Shown here: one piece after another, positions 707 to 9,602 of the stretch
Position numbering within the stretch: the first letter of the stretch is position 1
Layout: every line of letters begins with the position of its first letter
NCBI GenBank assembly: GCA_031292145.1
Contig: JARLHR010000204.1
Location: 62,001-126,000 of the forward strand
Direction: 5' to 3'
DNA: 64,000 nt
Source: Clostridium sp.
GTDB taxonomy: Bacteria; Bacillota; Clostridia; Clostridiales; Clostridiaceae
Translations under genes and position numbers: made by a program
The notes under the pieces: model-generated
Database searches by the model: none
What the model saw: only the letters and a program-made list of their open reading frames with translations
What the model was told of the DNA's origin: nothing

Positions 707-3700
707 TTAATCAAAGTAGATATCTGAAAATTCTATATTAAGAGTATCTACTAAGCTGCTAGAATTTTCAGTTTGATTCTGTGGCTTTTGAAGTTGATTT
801 TCATGTAGCTTTTTCACTGGGAACTCGATAATGAATTTGCTGCCCTTTCCAAGTTCACTAGTTAATGAAATTTTCCCATCATGCAATTCAACAAATGATT
901 TTACAATAGAAAGTCCTATACCAGTTCCTTCATTTTTTCTTGTAAATGTGTTATCAATTTGCTGAAATTTTTCAAAAATCATTTCTTTCTTTTCTGCAGG
1001 TACTCCAATCCCTGTATCTTCGATAGAAACTATAACACTATCGGTTTTATTTAAAATTTTTACAAATATGCATCCCTTCTTTGGTGTAAACTTTATTGCA
1101 TTAGAAAGTAAGTTTAGTAATATTCTTTCAATCTTATCCGGATCTACAGCTATAATTTTCTCTTCCTCATCTGTATCAAATATTATCGTTATTCCCTTTA
1201 ATTTAGCATACTCTACTACAGAAATTGTTATATCCTCAACTAAACTTACAATATTAAGATTTTTAAGGTCAAGTTTTCTAAAACCAGCATCAAATTTTGT
1301 TACATCAATAATATTATTAACGAGTCTTAGCAATCGATAGCAATTCTGCTTAATTGTCCTAATATGATTAGATAGATTTTGTTTATTTTCAGATTCATTA
1401 CTATTAATGTTAACTTCAATTAACTGTATTCCACTTAAAATAACGGCAATAGGAGTTCTAAGTTCATGGCTTATATTTGCAATAAAATTACTCTTCGCTA
1501 TATTTGCATTGTCAGCTTCTGCCTTTGCATTTTTAAGTTCTAGTTCAGTCTTACTGTATCGCTCTATTTCTCCTTCAAGAATCCCATTTACCTCCTGGAG
1601 GATAAGGTTCGTTCTCTCAAGCTCCTTAGCTTTATCAGTATTAACTATTAGATTACTAGTTTCACCAATTTTACTCATCAAAGCCGACTCTTCACTAGAT
1701 GTATTAACAAGAAACTGATTTTTTAAAATATTTACTTCCTCTATTGTCTGCTTTGCTATTTTTAGCTCATCTTCAGATTTTTTTCTTTCAGATATATTCA
1801 TATGAATTCCAGACATTCGGATTGGTTTATCGTGTTCGTCCCACTCAATTACCCTGCCTCTATCTTTTATCCATACCCAATCTCCACTTTTATGTTTTAA
1901 TCTCAGCTCACATTCATACCAATATATTTTTTTTGAAAAACATTGTTCTATACATTCCATCACTCTAGAAGTATCCTCAGGATGGATTAATTTTATCCAT
2001 GTATCAATATTAGCAGGCATTAATTCCTCTACAGTATACCCTAACATTTTTCCCCATTCTTCATTAATTATATTTTCTCCAGTTTCTATGTTCCAATCCC
2101 AAAGCCCTACCCCTGCACTACTAGCTGTAATATTCAATTTAATTTCACTATCTCGAAGCTTATCTTTCATATTTTGTTCCAAAGTATTATAAAGCATAGC
2201 ATTTTCAAGTGAAATAGCTGCCTGAGCCGATAAGATCTCTATAATTTTTACTCTATCAGGTCTAAATGCACCTTCAATCAAATTATTTTCAAGGTATAAA
2301 ATACCTTTTATCTCATTTTTAAGTTTTACTGCTTTTGAGATGAATGATTTTGGTTTTTGGTTAATAATATAAGTATCATTATTAAAGAAAGATTTATCTA
2401 TTTTTTCAGGAAATATAACATCTTCCCCTGTTCTTCCTGTATATCTAATAACTGTTTTTGGAAGTTCTTCACATTCATCAAGAGGTAGTGATGTTAATAT
2501 TTGCTTCTTATTTTCTGCTTCACCTAAATAAGCTTCAATCATAAGCTTATCTCCTCTCTTTAGTATAAAGAATCCCCTTTGAGCTCCCACATTTTCTATC
2601 ATAACAGTCATAAGACGACTAAGCAGTCCTTCAAGATTGATTTCACTAGAAATTGCCTGCGATGCTTTCATGATGGAGAACAAATCAATATTTTGATGAG
2701 AATCTATCTTTTCATTACTGCCTGAAAATAAATTTGGATATGTATCATCCAAATTTTCCACTTTAGCTGCAGCTCCCCAATGCTGATACTTATTTCTAGC
2801 TTCCATAAGGTATACTTTTGCAGTGTCCAATTTACATTCATTCAAATAGAATTTTCCTGCTAATTCATAGGCTAAAGCTTCTTCATTTAAATATTCATTT
2901 TCCTTAGCTAAATTGATGGATTTATCATAGTATTCTTTAGCTTCACTATAATTTCCACTTACTTTGCATAACTCAGCTTGAACTAAATAAAATTTATGTA
3001 GAAAATTCATTGGTGCTAGTTTTGACCACATTAGCATCTTTGCTTGATTGTTGTTAACTCTTACTAAATTCAGATTTTGCTCTTCCTTTGTCAAAGTGAA
3101 ATGTAGAGCTAGTCTTATAAGAGAATCATAAAAATAGAAAATAGCAATATCTATCATTCCTCCAAATCCATTTATGTTTTCTTCTATTTTCTGTCCACAT
3201 TCAATAGCTCCAGAGTAATTTTTGAAGTAATAACTTAACATCATTTTAGCTAAATAGAGATACTGCATTCCCTGTATATCTCCAATGCCTTGAATAATGG
3301 GCAACATCCTATCTTCATCAAAATAATCACCATTAAACTCCAAAACATTTTGACATCTTCCTTGCAAATTCTGGATGGTTTGTCCAAAAATATTTATCCA
3401 AATAATACTTAAACCCTGTTGCATTTTCTGTAATCTTTTTATATTAATATCTATTTCTTTTCCTGCTACCTCAAGAATCTGACCAGCGTAAAGTGAATTC
3501 TTACTGTACATAGATGCACAATATCCTGCATATTCAAAGTTACCATTTTCTACTCCAGACCAATACCCTTCAATATATGGCTTAAATGTTTCTCTTATAT
3601 GTTCTTTCCAATGCTTCGTAAAAGTATTATTTGCATCCATTACTAATGACTTATATTGCTTCATATTTTGACTTTCTACAAGTTTATCGCTCATTTTTTC

Positions 3701-6619
3701 TAATTTATATGCAAGTTCTATATATTCCTCTAATTTATCTCCTAGCTCTATATTGTTTATGTGCGAACAAAGAGTATTTGCATAAAATGAATAAACTACT
3801 GGAGCAAACGGAGTATTACCAAATTTTACAGTTAACTCTACCATCTTACATATTACTATATTTCCAAGTATAGAATCTAATTGAAATGCGACTGGCGTGC
3901 TACTCAGCAAAATCTGCATTGCTGCAAGCTTTACAGGATCTTTCAGTTGCGGTAACTCAGTTAACTTTTCTACTTGCATTACTGATATGGTCTTCCATGT
4001 ATTTTTAAAAGCTACTTCAAAATCGTATTGATTAGGTTCCCTTGGAATATAAATTCCAAGATGTTTAAGAACTGTTGCACTTGTCTCCATTGCTTCCTTT
4101 AAATTTAACTCAGCTTGATAAGCTTCTATTTTAATTTTATAAACTTTAATTTTATCTAGTAATGTTTTTCCATTACTTAATACAATTCCTCCAAACTTAT
4201 CCATTTCATTATACTCATTTATTAAATGCGCTGCCTCTGTAATATCTGAATACAATTGCAAAGTCAAATCATAATTCTCTTCCCACGCATTACTACTTAA
4301 TAATTTAATTCCTTCACTAAAATAATTATATGCAGAAGAATATGCAGAAGATTTTTTTGCCATTATACCTGCCTTCAAATATAATTCTGCCAATTTAACC
4401 TTTTTTGCTTCATCAATGATTATTGCGCTTCCAGCATTAAGTTGCCTAACTATTTCAAACAATTGCTCTGAATTATTTAAATCACTACAGTTTTTCAAAT
4501 AAAGTTGCCCTAGCTGTAAATGTATGACACATTTTTCATCTTCTGATATCATGGAATATACTGCCTGCTGGATACGGTCATGAACAAACTTAAATTTAAT
4601 ATATCCCTGTACCTGCTGCTGAAATTCACTTTTATCAACATAGATCATACCAATTTCAACTGCTTCTTCTAACGAATGTAATATGATTTCAGCGGGATTA
4701 TCACCAACCAAAGCTAGTGTCTGCAAATCAAATTGATTTCCAATGCATGCTGCATATTTAAGCCACAGTATTGCCTTCGGATTTAGTGTTTTAATTTTGC
4801 TATTTAACAGATCTATTACATTTTCTGTTATGTTCATTTTTTTAATCTCTTCAGTATTAAAGCGCCATGTACTTAACCTATAATCAAACCATAAGTATCC
4901 AAAATCATATAAAGATCTTAAAAATTGCTTAACAAAAAATGGATTACCCTGTGTTTTATTCCATATACAATCGGCCAATTCTTGGAACTCCATCAAATCT
5001 TGATCCAAACTTACTAATGTATCTTCTAGAAGCAGCTGCACATCTTTCTTTTGAAGTTCCTTCAAATTAATTGTATTAGTAATGGTTTTGTCCTGAATCA
5101 TCTCAGCTACCCATGATGTAATTGGATAAAGGAAACTAGTGTCGTTATCTCGATATGCCCCCACCACCAATAAATGCTTATTTGATTTATTCGTGATTAT
5201 CATTTTTAAGAAATTCAAACTCGAAGAATCTGCCCATTGCAAATCATCGATAAATATAACAAATGGATGTATCGCTGTGGCTATAATTTGTATAAAATTT
5301 TTGAATACAAAATTAAACCTGTTCTGGTTCTCAACAGCACCTAATTGAGAAACCGCAGGCTGCTTTCCTATAATTAATTCTAAAGCTGGAATTACATCTA
5401 TAATAACTTGACCATTATTCCCAACTGCTTTCAAGATACTTTGCTTCCATCCCTCCAATTTATTTGAAGATTCCATAAGAAGCTGATTAATAAAATTATC
5501 CAAGGATTGAATAATCGCACTATATGGAATATCATTTTGAAATTGTTCAAACTTACCAAAAGTAAAGTATCCATGTTTTTTCTTAATATAACTGCAAAAT
5601 TCATGAACTATAGCAGACTTTCCCATTCCTGGTGCTCCCCATATTATAAATAATTCCGACGCACCTTCTCTGACTCTATCAAAGGATTCCATCAATATTT
5701 GAAATTCCTTATCACGTCCATATAATTTTTGCGGTATAAAAAATTGCCCAGAAAAATCATACTTCCCTAATTTAAAACTCTTACTAAAATTGTTTTCCAC
5801 ATTCATAAGGCATCTTTCAAAGTCCTTCTTTAATCCAAAAGCAGACTTATATCTATCTTCTGGATTTTTTGCAATTAATTTTAGTATAATATCAGATACA
5901 ACTTTAGGTATAGCTGAATTAATTTTATTAATACCTTCTGGTTCTTTTGCTACATGACTATAAATCAGCTCAATTAAATCTTTTGATGGAAAAGGTACCT
6001 TTCCCGCCAACATTTCATAAAAAGTTATTCCCAACGAATAAAAATCACTTCTATAATCCGCAGTTCTATTCATTCTTCCTGTTTGTTCTGGTGAAATGTA
6101 ATTTAATGAACCCTCGAAAATATTAATATCTGCTAATATATAATTTTTATTTGATAAGTGCACTGCATTACTAAAATTAATGATTTTTACTTCTCCTGTT
6201 TGTCTATTATATAAAACATTAGACGGATTAATAGCTCCATGAATAATATTTTTAGCATGAATTTTTTTTAATGCACTACAAATTTGAATAGAAATTAATA
6301 AAAATTCTTCAAGATCAAACACACCGAACTTATTTAATTTATCTATAGATTCTCCATTAAAATACTCTTGAATTATTGCAAGCCCATTATTGTAATTTAT
6401 TAAATCAATGTACTTAATAACATTGTTGCTTTTAATTCTATTTCCTATTTCAAACTCTTCTTTAAGTCTTTTTGTATCTTCATTAGTTTGATATTTTATA
6501 TTATTTATTTTTATAATAACAGAGCATCCATCAGAAATTCTCTTTCCCCTAAAAATACTTGTTCTTGCCCCACTATGCAATTCACTTATTATTTCATAGT
6601 CTTTTAATTTAGTATACAT
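707..6619 (-). CDS. giant kinase-like/AAA ATPase/GAF/PAS sensor histidine kinase
   Basis: This 1970-residue cytoplasmic protein has the layout of trifunctional Ser/Thr kinase-ATPase-histidine kinases. Residues about 7-270 are a protein-kinase fold; about 300-520 an AAA/Orc-like ATPase with Walker A GAPGMGKS (K334) and Walker B VIFIDDLQWAD; then a long helical TPR-like region to about 1270; a GAF domain about 1300-1460; a PAS/PAC domain about 1490-1590; and a histidine kinase with SHELRTP (H1718), N-box NLLSNAIKFT and G-boxes DTGIG and EGTGIGLS. The kinase domain keeps the ATP lysine (K37) but the HRD aspartate is alanine (A129, in HGAINPSN) and the DFG aspartate is asparagine (N148). It is therefore probably a pseudokinase. 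No receiver partner is adjacent. The last residues, EFSDIYFD, resemble those of the kinase at 53651-56008. The start has AAAGGA about ten bases upstream. Confidence 0.93.
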   Translation of the reverse strand: MYTKLKDYEIISELHSGARTSIFRGKRISDGCSVIIKINNIKYQTNEDTKRLKEEFEIGNRIKSNNVIKYIDLINYNNGLAIIQEYFNGESIDKLNKFGVFDLEEFLLISIQICSALKKIHAKNIIHGAINPSNVLYNRQTGEVKIINFSNAVHLSNKNYILADINIFEGSLNYISPEQTGRMNRTADYRSDFYSLGITFYEMLAGKVPFPSKDLIELIYSHVAKEPEGINKINSAIPKVVSDIILKLIAKNPEDRYKSAFGLKKDFERCLMNVENNFSKSFKLGKYDFSGQFFIPQKLYGRDKEFQILMESFDRVREGASELFIIWGAPGMGKSAIVHEFCSYIKKKHGYFTFGKFEQFQNDIPYSAIIQSLDNFINQLLMESSNKLEGWKQSILKAVGNNGQVIIDVIPALELIIGKQPAVSQLGAVENQNRFNFVFKNFIQIIATAIHPFVIFIDDLQWADSSSLNFLKMIITNKSNKHLLVVGAYRDNDTSFLYPITSWVAEMIQDKTITNTINLKELQKKDVQLLLEDTLVSLDQDLMEFQELADCIWNKTQGNPFFVKQFLRSLYDFGYLWFDYRLSTWRFNTEEIKKMNITENVIDLLNSKIKTLNPKAILWLKYAACIGNQFDLQTLALVGDNPAEIILHSLEEAVEIGMIYVDKSEFQQQVQGYIKFKFVHDRIQQAVYSMISEDEKCVIHLQLGQLYLKNCSDLNNSEQLFEIVRQLNAGSAIIIDEAKKVKLAELYLKAGIMAKKSSAYSSAYNYFSEGIKLLSSNAWEENYDLTLQLYSDITEAAHLINEYNEMDKFGGIVLSNGKTLLDKIKVYKIKIEAYQAELNLKEAMETSATVLKHLGIYIPREPNQYDFEVAFKNTWKTISVMQVEKLTELPQLKDPVKLAAMQILLSSTPVAFQLDSILGNIVICKMVELTVKFGNTPFAPVVYSFYANTLCSHINNIELGDKLEEYIELAYKLEKMSDKLVESQNMKQYKSLVMDANNTFTKHWKEHIRETFKPYIEGYWSGVENGNFEYAGYCASMYSKNSLYAGQILEVAGKEIDINIKRLQKMQQGLSIIWINIFGQTIQNLQGRCQNVLEFNGDYFDEDRMLPIIQGIGDIQGMQYLYLAKMMLSYYFKNYSGAIECGQKIEENINGFGGMIDIAIFYFYDSLIRLALHFTLTKEEQNLNLVRVNNNQAKMLMWSKLAPMNFLHKFYLVQAELCKVSGNYSEAKEYYDKSINLAKENEYLNEEALAYELAGKFYLNECKLDTAKVYLMEARNKYQHWGAAAKVENLDDTYPNLFSGSNEKIDSHQNIDLFSIMKASQAISSEINLEGLLSRLMTVMIENVGAQRGFFILKRGDKLMIEAYLGEAENKKQILTSLPLDECEELPKTVIRYTGRTGEDVIFPEKIDKSFFNNDTYIINQKPKSFISKAVKLKNEIKGILYLENNLIEGAFRPDRVKIIEILSAQAAISLENAMLYNTLEQNMKDKLRDSEIKLNITASSAGVGLWDWNIETGENIINEEWGKMLGYTVEELMPANIDTWIKLIHPEDTSRVMECIEQCFSKKIYWYECELRLKHKSGDWVWIKDRGRVIEWDEHDKPIRMSGIHMNISERKKSEDELKIAKQTIEEVNILKNQFLVNTSSEESALMSKIGETSNLIVNTDKAKELERTNLILQEVNGILEGEIERYSKTELELKNAKAEADNANIAKSNFIANISHELRTPIAVILSGIQLIEVNINSNESENKQNLSNHIRTIKQNCYRLLRLVNNIIDVTKFDAGFRKLDLKNLNIVSLVEDITISVVEYAKLKGITIIFDTDEEEKIIAVDPDKIERILLNLLSNAIKFTPKKGCIFVKILNKTDSVIVSIEDTGIGVPAEKKEMIFEKFQQIDNTFTRKNEGTGIGLSIVKSFVELHDGKISLTSELGKGSKFIIEFPVKKLHENQLQKPQNQTENSSSLVDTLNIEFSDIYFD

Positions 6620-6899
6620 TGTCTTTGTATCCTTTCACTCTATAGACTTTTATTAGGTATAAAAATATCATGCAATATTAATATATAAATTAAATCAATA
6701 TAAATAAAAATTCGACGCATAATAAAAAATACCTTCCTGAATTGTAAAAAGAAAGGATAAACCCATATGCTTTGGTAAAATAGCAAATAATATGAGATAA
6801 TTTGTTATTACCACTATCCATGCATGTTAGTTCTAATTATCTTTCAAATTCCCTAAATAACTTTTCAATTAGAGGCTTAAATTACCATGCATATATCTC

Positions 6900-6928
6900 T
6901 TGTACAGGCACTTTAAATATGTTATTAT
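6900..6928 (+). promoter_or_regulatory. SigA-type promoter of the Alu-like RNA/6S transcription unit
   Basis: TTGTAC (6900-6905), a 17-base spacer and TATTAT (6923-6928) form a good promoter. The same layout, including about 25 bases upstream, recurs before the second 6S RNA at 25600-25628. Transcription should start near 6935. Confidence 0.7.
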
Positions 6929-6934
6929 AACTTC

Positions 6935-7050
6935 ACGGAAACAAATTCGTGCTATATGGGGAGCTAGCGGTGCCCTGTAACCTGCAATCCGCTATAGCAG
7001 GATTGAATTCCCACTATAGAATTTAATTATCGACAGTGGGTGCACGATAT
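6935..7050 (+). ncRNA. SRP Alu-domain-only RNA
   Basis: The stretch 6947-7047 carries the hallmark 5' part of Firmicute SRP (scRNA) RNA: GGGGAGCTAGCGGTGCCC (helix 3) and CCTGCAATCCGC...GCAGG (helix 4). TAGCGG and CCGCTA are placed in the two loops for the tertiary loop-loop pairing, followed by TTGAATTCCC. Normal SRP RNA then runs through a long helix 5 to the S domain that binds Ffh. Here helix 5 is a stub (CCCACT/AGTGGG around a 19-base loop), and the 3' strand returns at once to the closing stem, TCGTGC (6947-6952) with GCACGA (7042-7047). No S-domain motif such as GGAAGGAAGC is present. There is no terminator after it, so it is probably made as a precursor with the 6S RNA that follows. 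That it is a folded Alu domain is clear; any function is inference. Confidence 0.8.
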
Positions 7051-7072
7051 TACCTTATTATAAAGAATATAA

Positions 7073-7259
7073 ATTCTGAAATATTCGTTAAGCTCTTATT
7101 TTGAACCTACGCATTAATTTGGGGAGTTCAATATTTAGATGAAGAAATGTACTTTCAATTGAGTCCTTTTACGGCATTGAAGGCGATTGAGGTATCTGTG
7201 AGGACACCCACCTATCGAAAGATAGGGATCAAAATTAGAGTATCGGTATTTTGGATATC
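7073..7259 (+). ncRNA. ssrS: 6S RNA, copy 1
   Basis: The 5' end, CTGAAATATTCGTTAAGC, and 3' end, CGGTATTTTGGAT, match the conserved closing stem of 6S RNA. CTCTTATTTTGA pairs with TCAAAATTAGAG to border the central bubble, and CCTATCGAAAGATAGG forms the usual small bubble-side hairpin. 6S RNA binds SigA-RNA polymerase by mimicking an open promoter and acts mainly in stationary phase. A second copy lies at 25663-25848. The differences between copies mostly preserve pairing. Confidence 0.88.
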
Positions 7260-7278
7260 ATAAATAGAATTTTTATGT

Positions 7279-7321
7279 GGTGCCTCAAGATGGTTAAAAA
7301 TCATCTTGAGGCACCTCTTTT
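7279..7321 (+). terminator. Rho-independent terminator of 6S copy 1
   Basis: GGTGCCTCAAGATG (7279-7292) pairs perfectly with CATCTTGAGGCACC (7302-7315), followed by TCTTTT. Confidence 0.9.
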
Positions 7322-7404
7322 AATTTTTTAGGCAAACCCTCTGTAACTTTAAATATATATTTAGTCTTACAGATTGCAATTTTAAAATAGTTATACAAAC
7401 TAAA

Positions 7405-7473
7405 TGGTATAGGTTAATTCCTATACCACAGTAAAAATCATGTTTTTTACTGCCCACGAATTCGTGGGCAGTA
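7405..7473. other. cluster of three consecutive hairpins with overlapping pairings
   Basis: TGGTATAGG/CCTATACCA (7405-7428, six-base loop) is followed by CAGTAAAA/TTTTACTG (7429-7452) and by a perfect 26-base palindrome centred on GAATTC (7448-7473, arms TACTGCCCACGAA). The second and third structures share TACTG and cannot form together. No gene follows on the plus strand and the T-run lies on the wrong side for a terminator of either neighbour. The rest of 7322-7550 shows nothing else. Confidence 0.5.
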
Positions 7474-7551
7474 ATTAGTATATCCTAAAAATAACCTTAT
7501 ATAATTAATAATACAATTTTGTAAGTTATATTAGGTACACAAATTCTATAG

Positions 7552-7581
7552 TTGACTTCTTAGATAAAAATATTAGATAAT
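7552..7581 (+). promoter_or_regulatory. possible promoter for structured repeat element copy 1
   Basis: TTGACT (7552-7557) and GATAAT (7576-7581) are separated by 18 bases. A transcript would begin about 15 bases before the outer stem of the repeat element. This supports, but does not prove, that the element is transcribed. Confidence 0.45.
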
Positions 7582-7603
7582 TCTTAAGTAGATATCTTCA
7601 CTA

Positions 7604-7888
7604 GAAATCATAAATATTTTTGTGCAGAAGGCATTTGAAAATGAGCTGTTAAAGGTTCTTAAGCAGTGAGCCCAAATCTATGATTTGGTGCGAATCGCTT
7701 ACTCAGCGAACCGCAGTGAGTCGAGTTTCCTCTATAAGTTGTTCCACTTTAACTTGTCACACTAAAAGTGGGAGCATGCTAAAGTGGGTACAACCTGCAA
7801 CTTAGAACCTTCAGCGACATTTTCATAGCCCTTCGAAATAAAAATATTTATGATTTCGGTAAGCTACCACTTAAGTCTAGTTTCCGTG
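7604..7888 (+). repeat. structured RNA-like repeat element, copy 1
   Basis: The element is a long, interrupted hairpin. The outer stem GAAATCATAAATATTTTT (7604-7621) pairs with AAAAATATTTATGATTTC (7840-7857). Inside, GAAAATG...GCTG pairs with CAGC...CATTTTC and AAGGTTCT with AGAACCTT. There are two internal hairpins: CCAAATCtatGATTTGG, and CCACTTTA pairing with TAAAGTGG. A tail, CGGTAAGCTACC...AAGTCTAGTTTCCGT, follows. Copies at 36040-36325 and 38272-38459 keep the pairings with different bases. No protein is encoded. It lies downstream of cysN in the opposite orientation. Confidence 0.75.
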
Positions 7889-7913
7889 TTGGATATCTAA
7901 AGCATTATATCTT

Positions 7914-9602
7914 CTAGTTAGTGCTATGAAAAACTACTTTTCTATAAGTCTCAAATTTAACCCATTTATTCAAGAACTCTCCTAGAGTCTTTTCATTAGT
8001 TTCTTTATATTCATTTAAAAATATTGTAACTTCTTCATTAGAATTTACTTTCACTTCAAATCCTCTACCATTAATAACTGGAACTTCTTGATACTTATAA
8101 TCATCGATTGATTTAATATTAGTAATTTTCTTATCACGAACTTCAATTGCTACTAAGTCACGAAGAACTAGTAAATCAAAGTTCTCTGGATATTCATAGC
8201 TATCACCTTTTATCGGAAGTTCATCACCTACAGTGTAAGTTTGTTCATTTGGTTTATATTTGAATATAGATAAAGTTTCTGTATCATAATAGAATTCTTC
8301 AAAAATGTCTCCTCTTGCTTTTAATTCATTATGTTCAAAAGCAAATTTTCCATCTTTAACATCATTATTATGAACATCTTCTATAACACCACAAGCTGAC
8401 GTCATGTTAGTAATACGATCTATTAAAATAAGTTCTCCTAAAGTTTTATGTGCCTCGAACTTATCTACAACTATTTTTTCAGAAAGTAAAATATCACATG
8501 CTGCTATTTCATTTTTTGTTAAATATCCAGTTGGTAAATGTTCACCTGTATTAACATCAATTTTATACTTTACATCTGTAACAACACCAGTTAGCATCTT
8601 AGTACCAACTTTTACAAAGTACTCTTTACCTGCTGTTAACTCTGAATCATCCATCCAAAGAATTTTTGCACTAAGTAACTTGCTTGGAGCAATGCTAGTT
8701 CCTTTTGTAAGTACACAGCCTCTTGATACGTCAACTTCTTTATTAAGCTGTATTGTAACCGCCTGTCCTTGCCCTGCACTTTGTGATTCCTTGTCTGTAA
8801 CATGAATGCTCTTTACTAGAGCTTTTTCATTGCTAGGAAGAGTTATAATCTCATCTCCTACTGCAATACTTCCTGCTTCAATTTCGCCTTGGAATCCTCT
8901 AAAGGTATGATTCGGTCTACATACCCTTTGAACTGGCATATAGAAACCTTCTTCTGATTTATTATCAATCTCTACATTTTCTAGATATGTTAAAAGTGCT
9001 TCTCCACTATACCATGGTGTATTTTCTGACTTCTTTGTAACATTATCCCCTTCTGTAGCTGATACTGGAATTATATGAACATTTTCTAATGAAAGTTCTT
9101 TTACTAATTCTTTAATTTGCTCTTCAATTTCTAGAAATCTTTCATGATTGTATTCTACTAAATCTATTTTATTAACTGCAAATACAAAATGTTTTACACC
9201 CATTAAAGAACAAATTCTTGCATGTCTTCTTGTTTGAACAAGTACACCTTGCTTTGCATCTAATAATATAATAGCAAGTTCTGCAAAAGATGCACCTACT
9301 GCCATATTTCTAGTATATTCTTCATGTCCTGGAGTATCTGCTACTATAAAACTTCTATTATCAGTTGTAAAATAACGATATGCAACGTCTATTGTAATTC
9401 CTTGTTCACGTTCCGCCATTAAACCATCTAATAATAGGGAATAGTCTATTGCTCCGCCTCTGCTTCCAACCTTACTATCTAATTCTAAAGCTTTTTCTTG
9501 ATCCGCATACAAAAGCTTTGAATCATATAAAATATGTCCTATAAGAGTAGATTTTCCGTCATCTACGCTACCACATGTTATAAACTTTAATAAGCTCTTC
9601 AT
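7914..9602 (-). CDS. cysN: sulfate adenylyltransferase large subunit (GTPase)
   Basis: CysN is the GTP-hydrolysing subunit that drives the CysD reaction, ATP plus sulfate to APS, in the cytoplasm. The elongation-factor-like G domain is clear: GSVDDGKST at about residues 10-18, DTPGHEEYTRNM and NKIDLV. Beta-barrel domains follow. I place the start at ATG 9602, one base after the cysD stop, giving 562 residues; the longer open frame would overlap cysD by more than 100 bases. About 100 residues after the usual CysN end have no P-loop, so this is not a CysN-CysC (APS kinase) fusion. It is the last gene of the sulfate cluster. Confidence 0.93.
   Translation of the reverse strand: MKSLLKFITCGSVDDGKSTLIGHILYDSKLLYADQEKALELDSKVGSRGGAIDYSLLLDGLMAEREQGITIDVAYRYFTTDNRSFIVADTPGHEEYTRNMAVGASFAELAIILLDAKQGVLVQTRRHARICSLMGVKHFVFAVNKIDLVEYNHERFLEIEEQIKELVKELSLENVHIIPVSATEGDNVTKKSENTPWYSGEALLTYLENVEIDNKSEEGFYMPVQRVCRPNHTFRGFQGEIEAGSIAVGDEIITLPSNEKALVKSIHVTDKESQSAGQGQAVTIQLNKEVDVSRGCVLTKGTSIAPSKLLSAKILWMDDSELTAGKEYFVKVGTKMLTGVVTDVKYKIDVNTGEHLPTGYLTKNEIAACDILLSEKIVVDKFEAHKTLGELILIDRITNMTSACGVIEDVHNNDVKDGKFAFEHNELKARGDIFEEFYYDTETLSIFKYKPNEQTYTVGDELPIKGDSYEYPENFDLLVLRDLVAIEVRDKKITNIKSIDDYKYQEVPVINGRGFEVKVNSNEEVTIFLNEYKETNEKTLGEFLNKWVKFETYRKVVFHSTN

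Follow-up and report, generated by a model that had tools for sequence, protein, structure and literature searches.

An Alu-domain-only SRP RNA ahead of 6S RNA in a Clostridium genome, probably an intermediate in the disappearance of a second SRP RNA gene

Results

The window, a 64,000-nucleotide stretch of a Clostridium sp. contig analysed here as a whole, carries on its forward strand a compact RNA unit. A probable promoter (6900-6928), composed of TTGTAC at 6900-6905, a spacing of 17 nt and TATTAT at 6923-6928 with a TG one base upstream of it, precedes a 5′ leader (6929-6946), an SRP-related RNA cut to its Alu domain and a stub of helix 5 (6947-7047), a 6S RNA (7070-7261) and a terminator-like hairpin of 17 pairs followed by a T-rich stretch (7279-7315). 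The original prediction had proposed running the Rfam models over the locus, and both scored above their cut-offs, RF01854 for large SRP RNA (77.3 bits vs 60) and RF00013 for 6S RNA (49.6 bits vs 46.4). Taken by itself, the promoter consensus scan is at chance level (8 sites found vs 7.5 expected). The promoter, which had also been predicted, is called since a matching block precedes both the SRP2-6S and the 6S-only units of relatives, SRP2 being our name for a second SRP RNA lineage; in this comparison, the core was picked by pattern in one alignment set and the flanking letters were not. A scan of 6620-7920 returned two terminator-like sites vs 0.5 expected, one of them 7279-7315, and none between the Alu piece and the 6S RNA. 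The two Rfam matches and this uninterrupted stretch agree with the proposal of a shortened SRP RNA that probably shares a transcription unit with the 6S RNA. The predicted precursor of 6935-7259 holds as a single unit but not in its end, as the likely transcript, terminator included, extends to about 7320. By eye, the sequence of the 7279-7315 terminator is unlike the AAGCCAATGCTTA type found behind most 6S genes of relatives.

Several other features surround the unit. A perfect, loopless 14-nt inverted repeat lies between it and the next gene (7447-7474), and an inverted repeat with 40-nt arms, 83% complementary and spaced by 174 nt, occupies 7604-7857 and might be a small mobile element. On the minus strand, an ORF of 1970 aa (707-6619) resembles, by eye, a fusion of protein kinase, ATPase and histidine kinase.

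The SRP model aligns end to end with 6947-7047 (E 7.6e-11). Both Alu hairpins are present, with the loop-loop pair TAGCGG (6965-6970) and CCGCTA (6989-6994) containing the paired AGCGG/CCGCT characteristic of the family, as are the TTGAATTCCC junction, the end helix TCGTGC/GCACGA and TGTAA; all the predicted elements, the helix 5 stub included, were thus recovered. The chance expectation of such an Alu-only pattern in the window is 0.00. For the 101-nt RNA, the predicted folding energy is -33.4 kcal/mol (z -2.31), a value matched by 2 of 200 shuffles. The S domain and distal helix 5, which make up 166 of the 256 model positions, are covered by just 9 nt, and a motif check of the piece found neither the Ffh-binding GGAA hairpin nor the internal loop of the S domain, as the original prediction had stated. 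Since the Ffh-binding motif is missing, the piece is better described as SRP-derived than as an SRP RNA. A full-length normal SRP RNA is encoded on another contig of the same genome (C12:47483-47749, 199.5 bits).

Helix 5 is reduced to the stub CCCACT (7010-7015) and AGTGGG (7035-7040), closed by a 19-nt loop (7016-7034) that contains the deletion junction; in the alignment, about 165 nt are absent relative to full-length SRP2. Compared with same-genus copies, the stub looked like two new compensatory paired changes. We rejected this candidate, and with it the idea of a newly made closure: the same letters occur in G119 (genus g23) and, nearly so, in G113, G115, G116 and G121b, and the state of the stub is therefore probably inherited. 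A joining of the two ends of a full-length SRP2 gene during assembly seems highly improbable. The genome is a draft of 282 contigs and the Alu letters of its two SRP genes are nearly identical, which would favour such an artefact, but the site lies far from the ends of a 214-kb contig, the sequence flanking the junction is unlike that of all aligned full-length copies, and the 5′ leader is shortened too.

The origin of the piece was traced through additional SRP genes of relatives. Across the order, an SRP match was found in 214 of 225 genomes, the window's own included, and more than one in 21 (7 in the window's genus and 14 across five other genera); this search used stricter filters, and we rely on its counts per genome, the matches being listed only in part. 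A closer search of the 14 other-genus genomes gave 31 copies, 17 of them extra and every one full-length. The full-length SRP2 set comprises 22 of 23 extra copies, a third extra copy of G118 being left out. Within each genome, the lower-scoring SRP gene was labelled as the second copy and this label was then tested by trees. In a tree of 44 rows and 101 columns, 23 second copies, including the window piece, are split from 21 first copies by a branch with 100/99 support. When 23 of 30 single-copy SRP genes were added (in the other seven the script did not find the motif), the second copies separated from the other 44 rows with 100/100 support and in 100% of 200 bootstrap trees. The window piece falls inside the second-copy clade in both trees, built from 101 columns only. 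At the level of sequence comparison, its origin from SRP2 is clear, as are the layout of the unit and the remnants described below. One old duplication followed by many losses would fit these trees, and so would spread by transfer.

The SRP2 genes appear to be maintained, with both halves in use. Indeed, the Ffh-binding motif is kept in all 22 full-length genes examined, of the 132 cells for the six leading pairs of helix 5, 126 hold a standard pair and five of the six positions show two or more standard pair types, and the mean identities of SRP2 (Alu 0.944, S domain 0.865, helix 5 0.74 to 0.78) resemble those of the first copies (0.952, 0.888 and 0.74 to 0.77, respectively). No second Ffh for SRP2 was found in 18 genomes, each with one normal-length match over the cut-off; one weaker match per genome is presumably FtsY.

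Full-length SRP2 genes also occupy the place of the window piece. With the whole unit as query, 68 genomes of this genus, that of the window among them, were searched; six others (G008, G034, G027, G059, G060 and G081) have a second SRP gene directly before 6S, in each case full-length (171.0 to 195.7 bits). The 6S RNA behind them exceeds the Rfam cut-off in two cases (G081 and G027) and its sequence is plain in all six by alignment. The window unit is collinear with these six, but it lacks approximately 165 nt spanning helix 5 and the S domain, and its 5′ leader is reduced by about 23 nt. Overall, 6S directly follows SRP2 in 12 of 22 full-length cases, namely all six of the same genus and 6 of 16 others scanned, the latter all in genus g23 (L106, L107, L112, L114, L119 and L120; the 6S of L107 and L119 is below the Rfam cut-off). 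For the remaining ten other-genus copies, no 6S match was found at E 0.05 within about 1.5 kb. By eye, G113, G115 and G121b each have, right behind SRP2, a terminator resembling those of the 6S units. G118 (L119, L152) has two SRP2-6S units separated by about 20 kb, one near genes for 16S rRNA and a tRNA; its third extra SRP copy is elsewhere.

The gene neighbours of the window unit and of the units of relatives leave their positional orthology tentative; these neighbours were also the basis on which carriage of the unit by a mobile element was considered. Five of the six same-genus units adjoin a gene whose counterpart in the window genome stands near another 6S copy (C104:53038), not near the window unit. 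The G060 unit follows a gene run that is found upstream of the window unit in the window genome, there with further genes between. That the SRP-linked 6S genes form one clade, a possibility also considered, was unsupported, with four changes on a weak tree of 13 linked and 25 lone genes; on the same weak tree, linked genes are nevertheless more clustered than expected by chance (0 of 500 shuffles as low).

The Alu piece could have been kept as a structured 5′ leader that protects the 6S precursor or helps its processing. Its position directly before 6S with no intervening terminator, and the presence of SRP2 at that place in the 12 cases above, speak for such a role. On the other hand, 6S leaders without a full SRP2 vary freely in length, from 28 to 170 nt (the value of 28 possibly reflects a wrong promoter choice by the script, the next shortest being 38 nt), and we regard a leader role as quite improbable. 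Since other 6S genes sharing the promoter block have short leaders of 28-82 nt, 6S seems not to need SRP2.

Remnants of SRP2 were sought in the leaders of 6S genes that are not preceded by a full SRP2 gene. There were 26 such leaders, of which 20 were too short after trimming and six were tested, the window leader serving as a positive control (score 135.6). The G023 leader scored 77.8 against a maximum of 48.8 in 200 shuffles, and the first 6S leader of G060 scored 52.0, only just above its maximum of 49.3 in the same number of shuffles. No remnant signal was seen in three of the five non-window leaders, i.e. those of the first 6S gene of the window genome, G081 and G069 (50, 180 and 127 of 200 shuffles as good, respectively). 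In both G023 and G060, the 3′ arm aligns and the Alu part is unrecognisable, which is the opposite of the window. Since different parts were kept, SRP2 was apparently lost by different deletions. The original prediction had named a silent locus, or decay of the Alu part and its pairings at homologous loci, as evidence against it; decay of the Alu part is what the homologous leaders of G023 and G060 display, which bears out the second of these in part.

A second Alu-only RNA was not seen in the searches of the genus, the order and named genomes, where close records of this species may be missing; the pattern used requires a closing helix like that of the window within 25-55 nt of the second Alu loop. 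In the named-genome collection, its 12 matches are all SRP genes running into an S domain (11 complete, with L082 ending at a contig edge). Viral contigs gave no match to the pattern, and two phage records gave 41-nt matches at record ends. Among 18 plasmid records with a match, the nine examined comprise four of C. difficile in serS-dnaX surroundings, L168 and L169 beside dnaX, and three Priestia plasmids; the first six have chromosome-like neighbourhoods, from which the Priestia plasmids differ. No Alu-only RNA was found among six plasmid records scanned with Rfam (L164, L166-L169 and the third Priestia plasmid), all SRP RNAs being full-length. Within the scope of these searches, Alu-only RNA thus occurs in no more than one species, and the predicted new class reduces to the sole short member seen, lying inside a lineage of full-length second SRP genes.

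The Alu core itself is little altered. Its first 64 nt contain one base unseen in the 22 other SRP2 rows, a T at RNA position 9 (window position 6955) where these have 20 G and 2 A; among all 43 other SRP rows, the base is G in 41 and A in 2. In the Rfam alignment, this T changes a G-U to a U-U. A T at position 49 is common to 7 of the 22 SRP2 rows, and departures from the majority in this segment number 2 in the window and 0 to 6 in the other rows. At fourfold sites of rpoB, the window genome and G060 differ in 128 of 368 (0.47 corrected), and half of this value gives, as a rough estimate, about 15 neutral changes per 64 nt for the full time of separation of the lineage. One change against about 15 implies either a cut made within roughly the final third of this period or continuing selection on the Alu part; a single unusual base in 64 does not discriminate between the two. 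An rpoB tree of 23 of the 25 genomes (G081 and G023 had no match) puts the window genome near five SRP2 species and four without SRP2, not firmly placed.

This conservation bears on the proposal, made in the original prediction, of a functional Alu-only RNA that would be released from the 6S precursor, bind HU and the factor site of the ribosome without taking part in targeting, and slow translation when 6S slows transcription. An almost unchanged core, the retained paired loops and TGTAA, and the good fold are consistent with such a function. However, the searches made gave no other case, the T at position 9 weakens helix 2, and relatives lose the Alu part instead. We consider a working Alu RNA rather unlikely.

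A tandem in the reverse order was found on three Priestia plasmids, where a gap of about 14 nt separates 6S RNA (76.3 to 81.4 bits) from a full-length SRP RNA downstream of it (176.7 to 192.3 bits); the recorded spans are 1297-1764 in L166, 1298-1764 in L167, 8798-9432 in both L189 and L190, and 8668-9135 in L191. Two of the plasmids are identical over the 646 nt searched and carry 5S rRNA and tRNA genes behind the tandem, and the third has 16S, 23S and 5S rRNA genes elsewhere. In a search of 72,556 plasmid records, 175 matched some part, and among the best 40 of these, with records covering both RNAs ranking first, the tandem occurs on these three only; phages gave no match to it. The two distinct plasmid SRP sequences form a clade of their own, apart from SRP2 (100/99), and by this phylogeny the Priestia tandem appears independent of the clostridial one.

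Discussion

SRP RNA is usually regarded as a single-copy housekeeping RNA, and the linkage of a second such RNA to 6S RNA is surprising in its own right. We propose that SRP2 arose within this bacterial family, where it often heads a promoter-SRP2-6S-terminator unit. In the window lineage, one such unit may have lost about 165 nt, comprising the S domain and distal helix 5, together with about 23 nt of 5′ leader. The remaining Alu domain probably continues to be made, at the 5′ end of the 6S precursor; devoid of an Ffh-binding site, it cannot act as an SRP, and the normal SRP RNA encoded elsewhere would serve targeting.

Our preferred interpretation, held with moderate confidence, is that the piece represents a stage in the repeated loss of SRP2, having no dedicated role, with 6S keeping its own job. 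The complete spare gene is found in relatives in the same context, which makes a gene in the course of being lost a likelier reading of the window piece than a new RNA class. The single SRP2 clade, the full-length gene at the same place of the unit in six genomes of the genus, the remnants that keep the opposite part, the short leaders of other 6S genes with the same promoter block, the single normal-length Ffh and the G-U to U-U change all point to such a loss. The small number of changes in the Alu core relative to neutral drift, the intact paired loops, end helix and stub, and the missing remnant signal in three of five leaders argue against it. As to the Alu piece itself, we infer its transcription, its processing and its lack of function.

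An old SRP2 under a 6S promoter would link protein targeting to the growth-phase control of transcription. In addition, the natural series from full-length through Alu-only and remnant to gone offers a way to ask what each half of the RNA is required for. The reverse-order Priestia tandem suggests that the link between SRP and 6S is more than the accident of one lineage. More speculatively, SRP2 behind the 6S promoter could be a growth-phase SRP, cut back in this species to a free Alu RNA acting as a brake on translation, as 6S does on transcription, with Priestia as a second, independent coupling; we regard this as unlikely. Passages of a study of C. acetobutylicum under stress describe strong 6S and raised SRP RNA levels (PMC3879012), and parts of another paper give background on the Alu domain and HBsu (PMC8230904); passages of a third (PMC6429828) had no relevance to the present case. 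Among the search results listed, from literature that mostly lies outside subscription journals, no title or abstract was found on SRP-6S linkage in clostridia or within a single transcript, on Alu-domain SRP RNA, or on second or truncated SRP copies.

Among known systems, the window piece shares with the bacterial large SRP RNA (RF01854; the scRNA of Bacillus subtilis) the Alu domain, the end helix and the initial helix 5 pairs, but it differs in having no S domain and no Ffh site, in its place before 6S, and in that the genome encodes a full-length SRP RNA at another site. By Rfam, the 3′ portion of the unit is 6S RNA; it departs from the usual 6S RNA in that an SRP-derived RNA precedes it in the same likely transcript. 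The Priestia plasmid tandem resembles the window unit in its adjacent 6S and SRP RNA genes on one strand; unlike the window unit, it has 6S first, its SRP RNA is full-length and of a separate lineage, and it is plasmid-borne. In primates and rodents, free Alu RNAs derived from 7SL (scAlu, BC200) are likewise Alu halves of SRP RNA without the S half. To our knowledge, SRP9/14 proteins are absent in bacteria. The window piece differs from these RNAs in its separate origin and in being known here from sequence alone.
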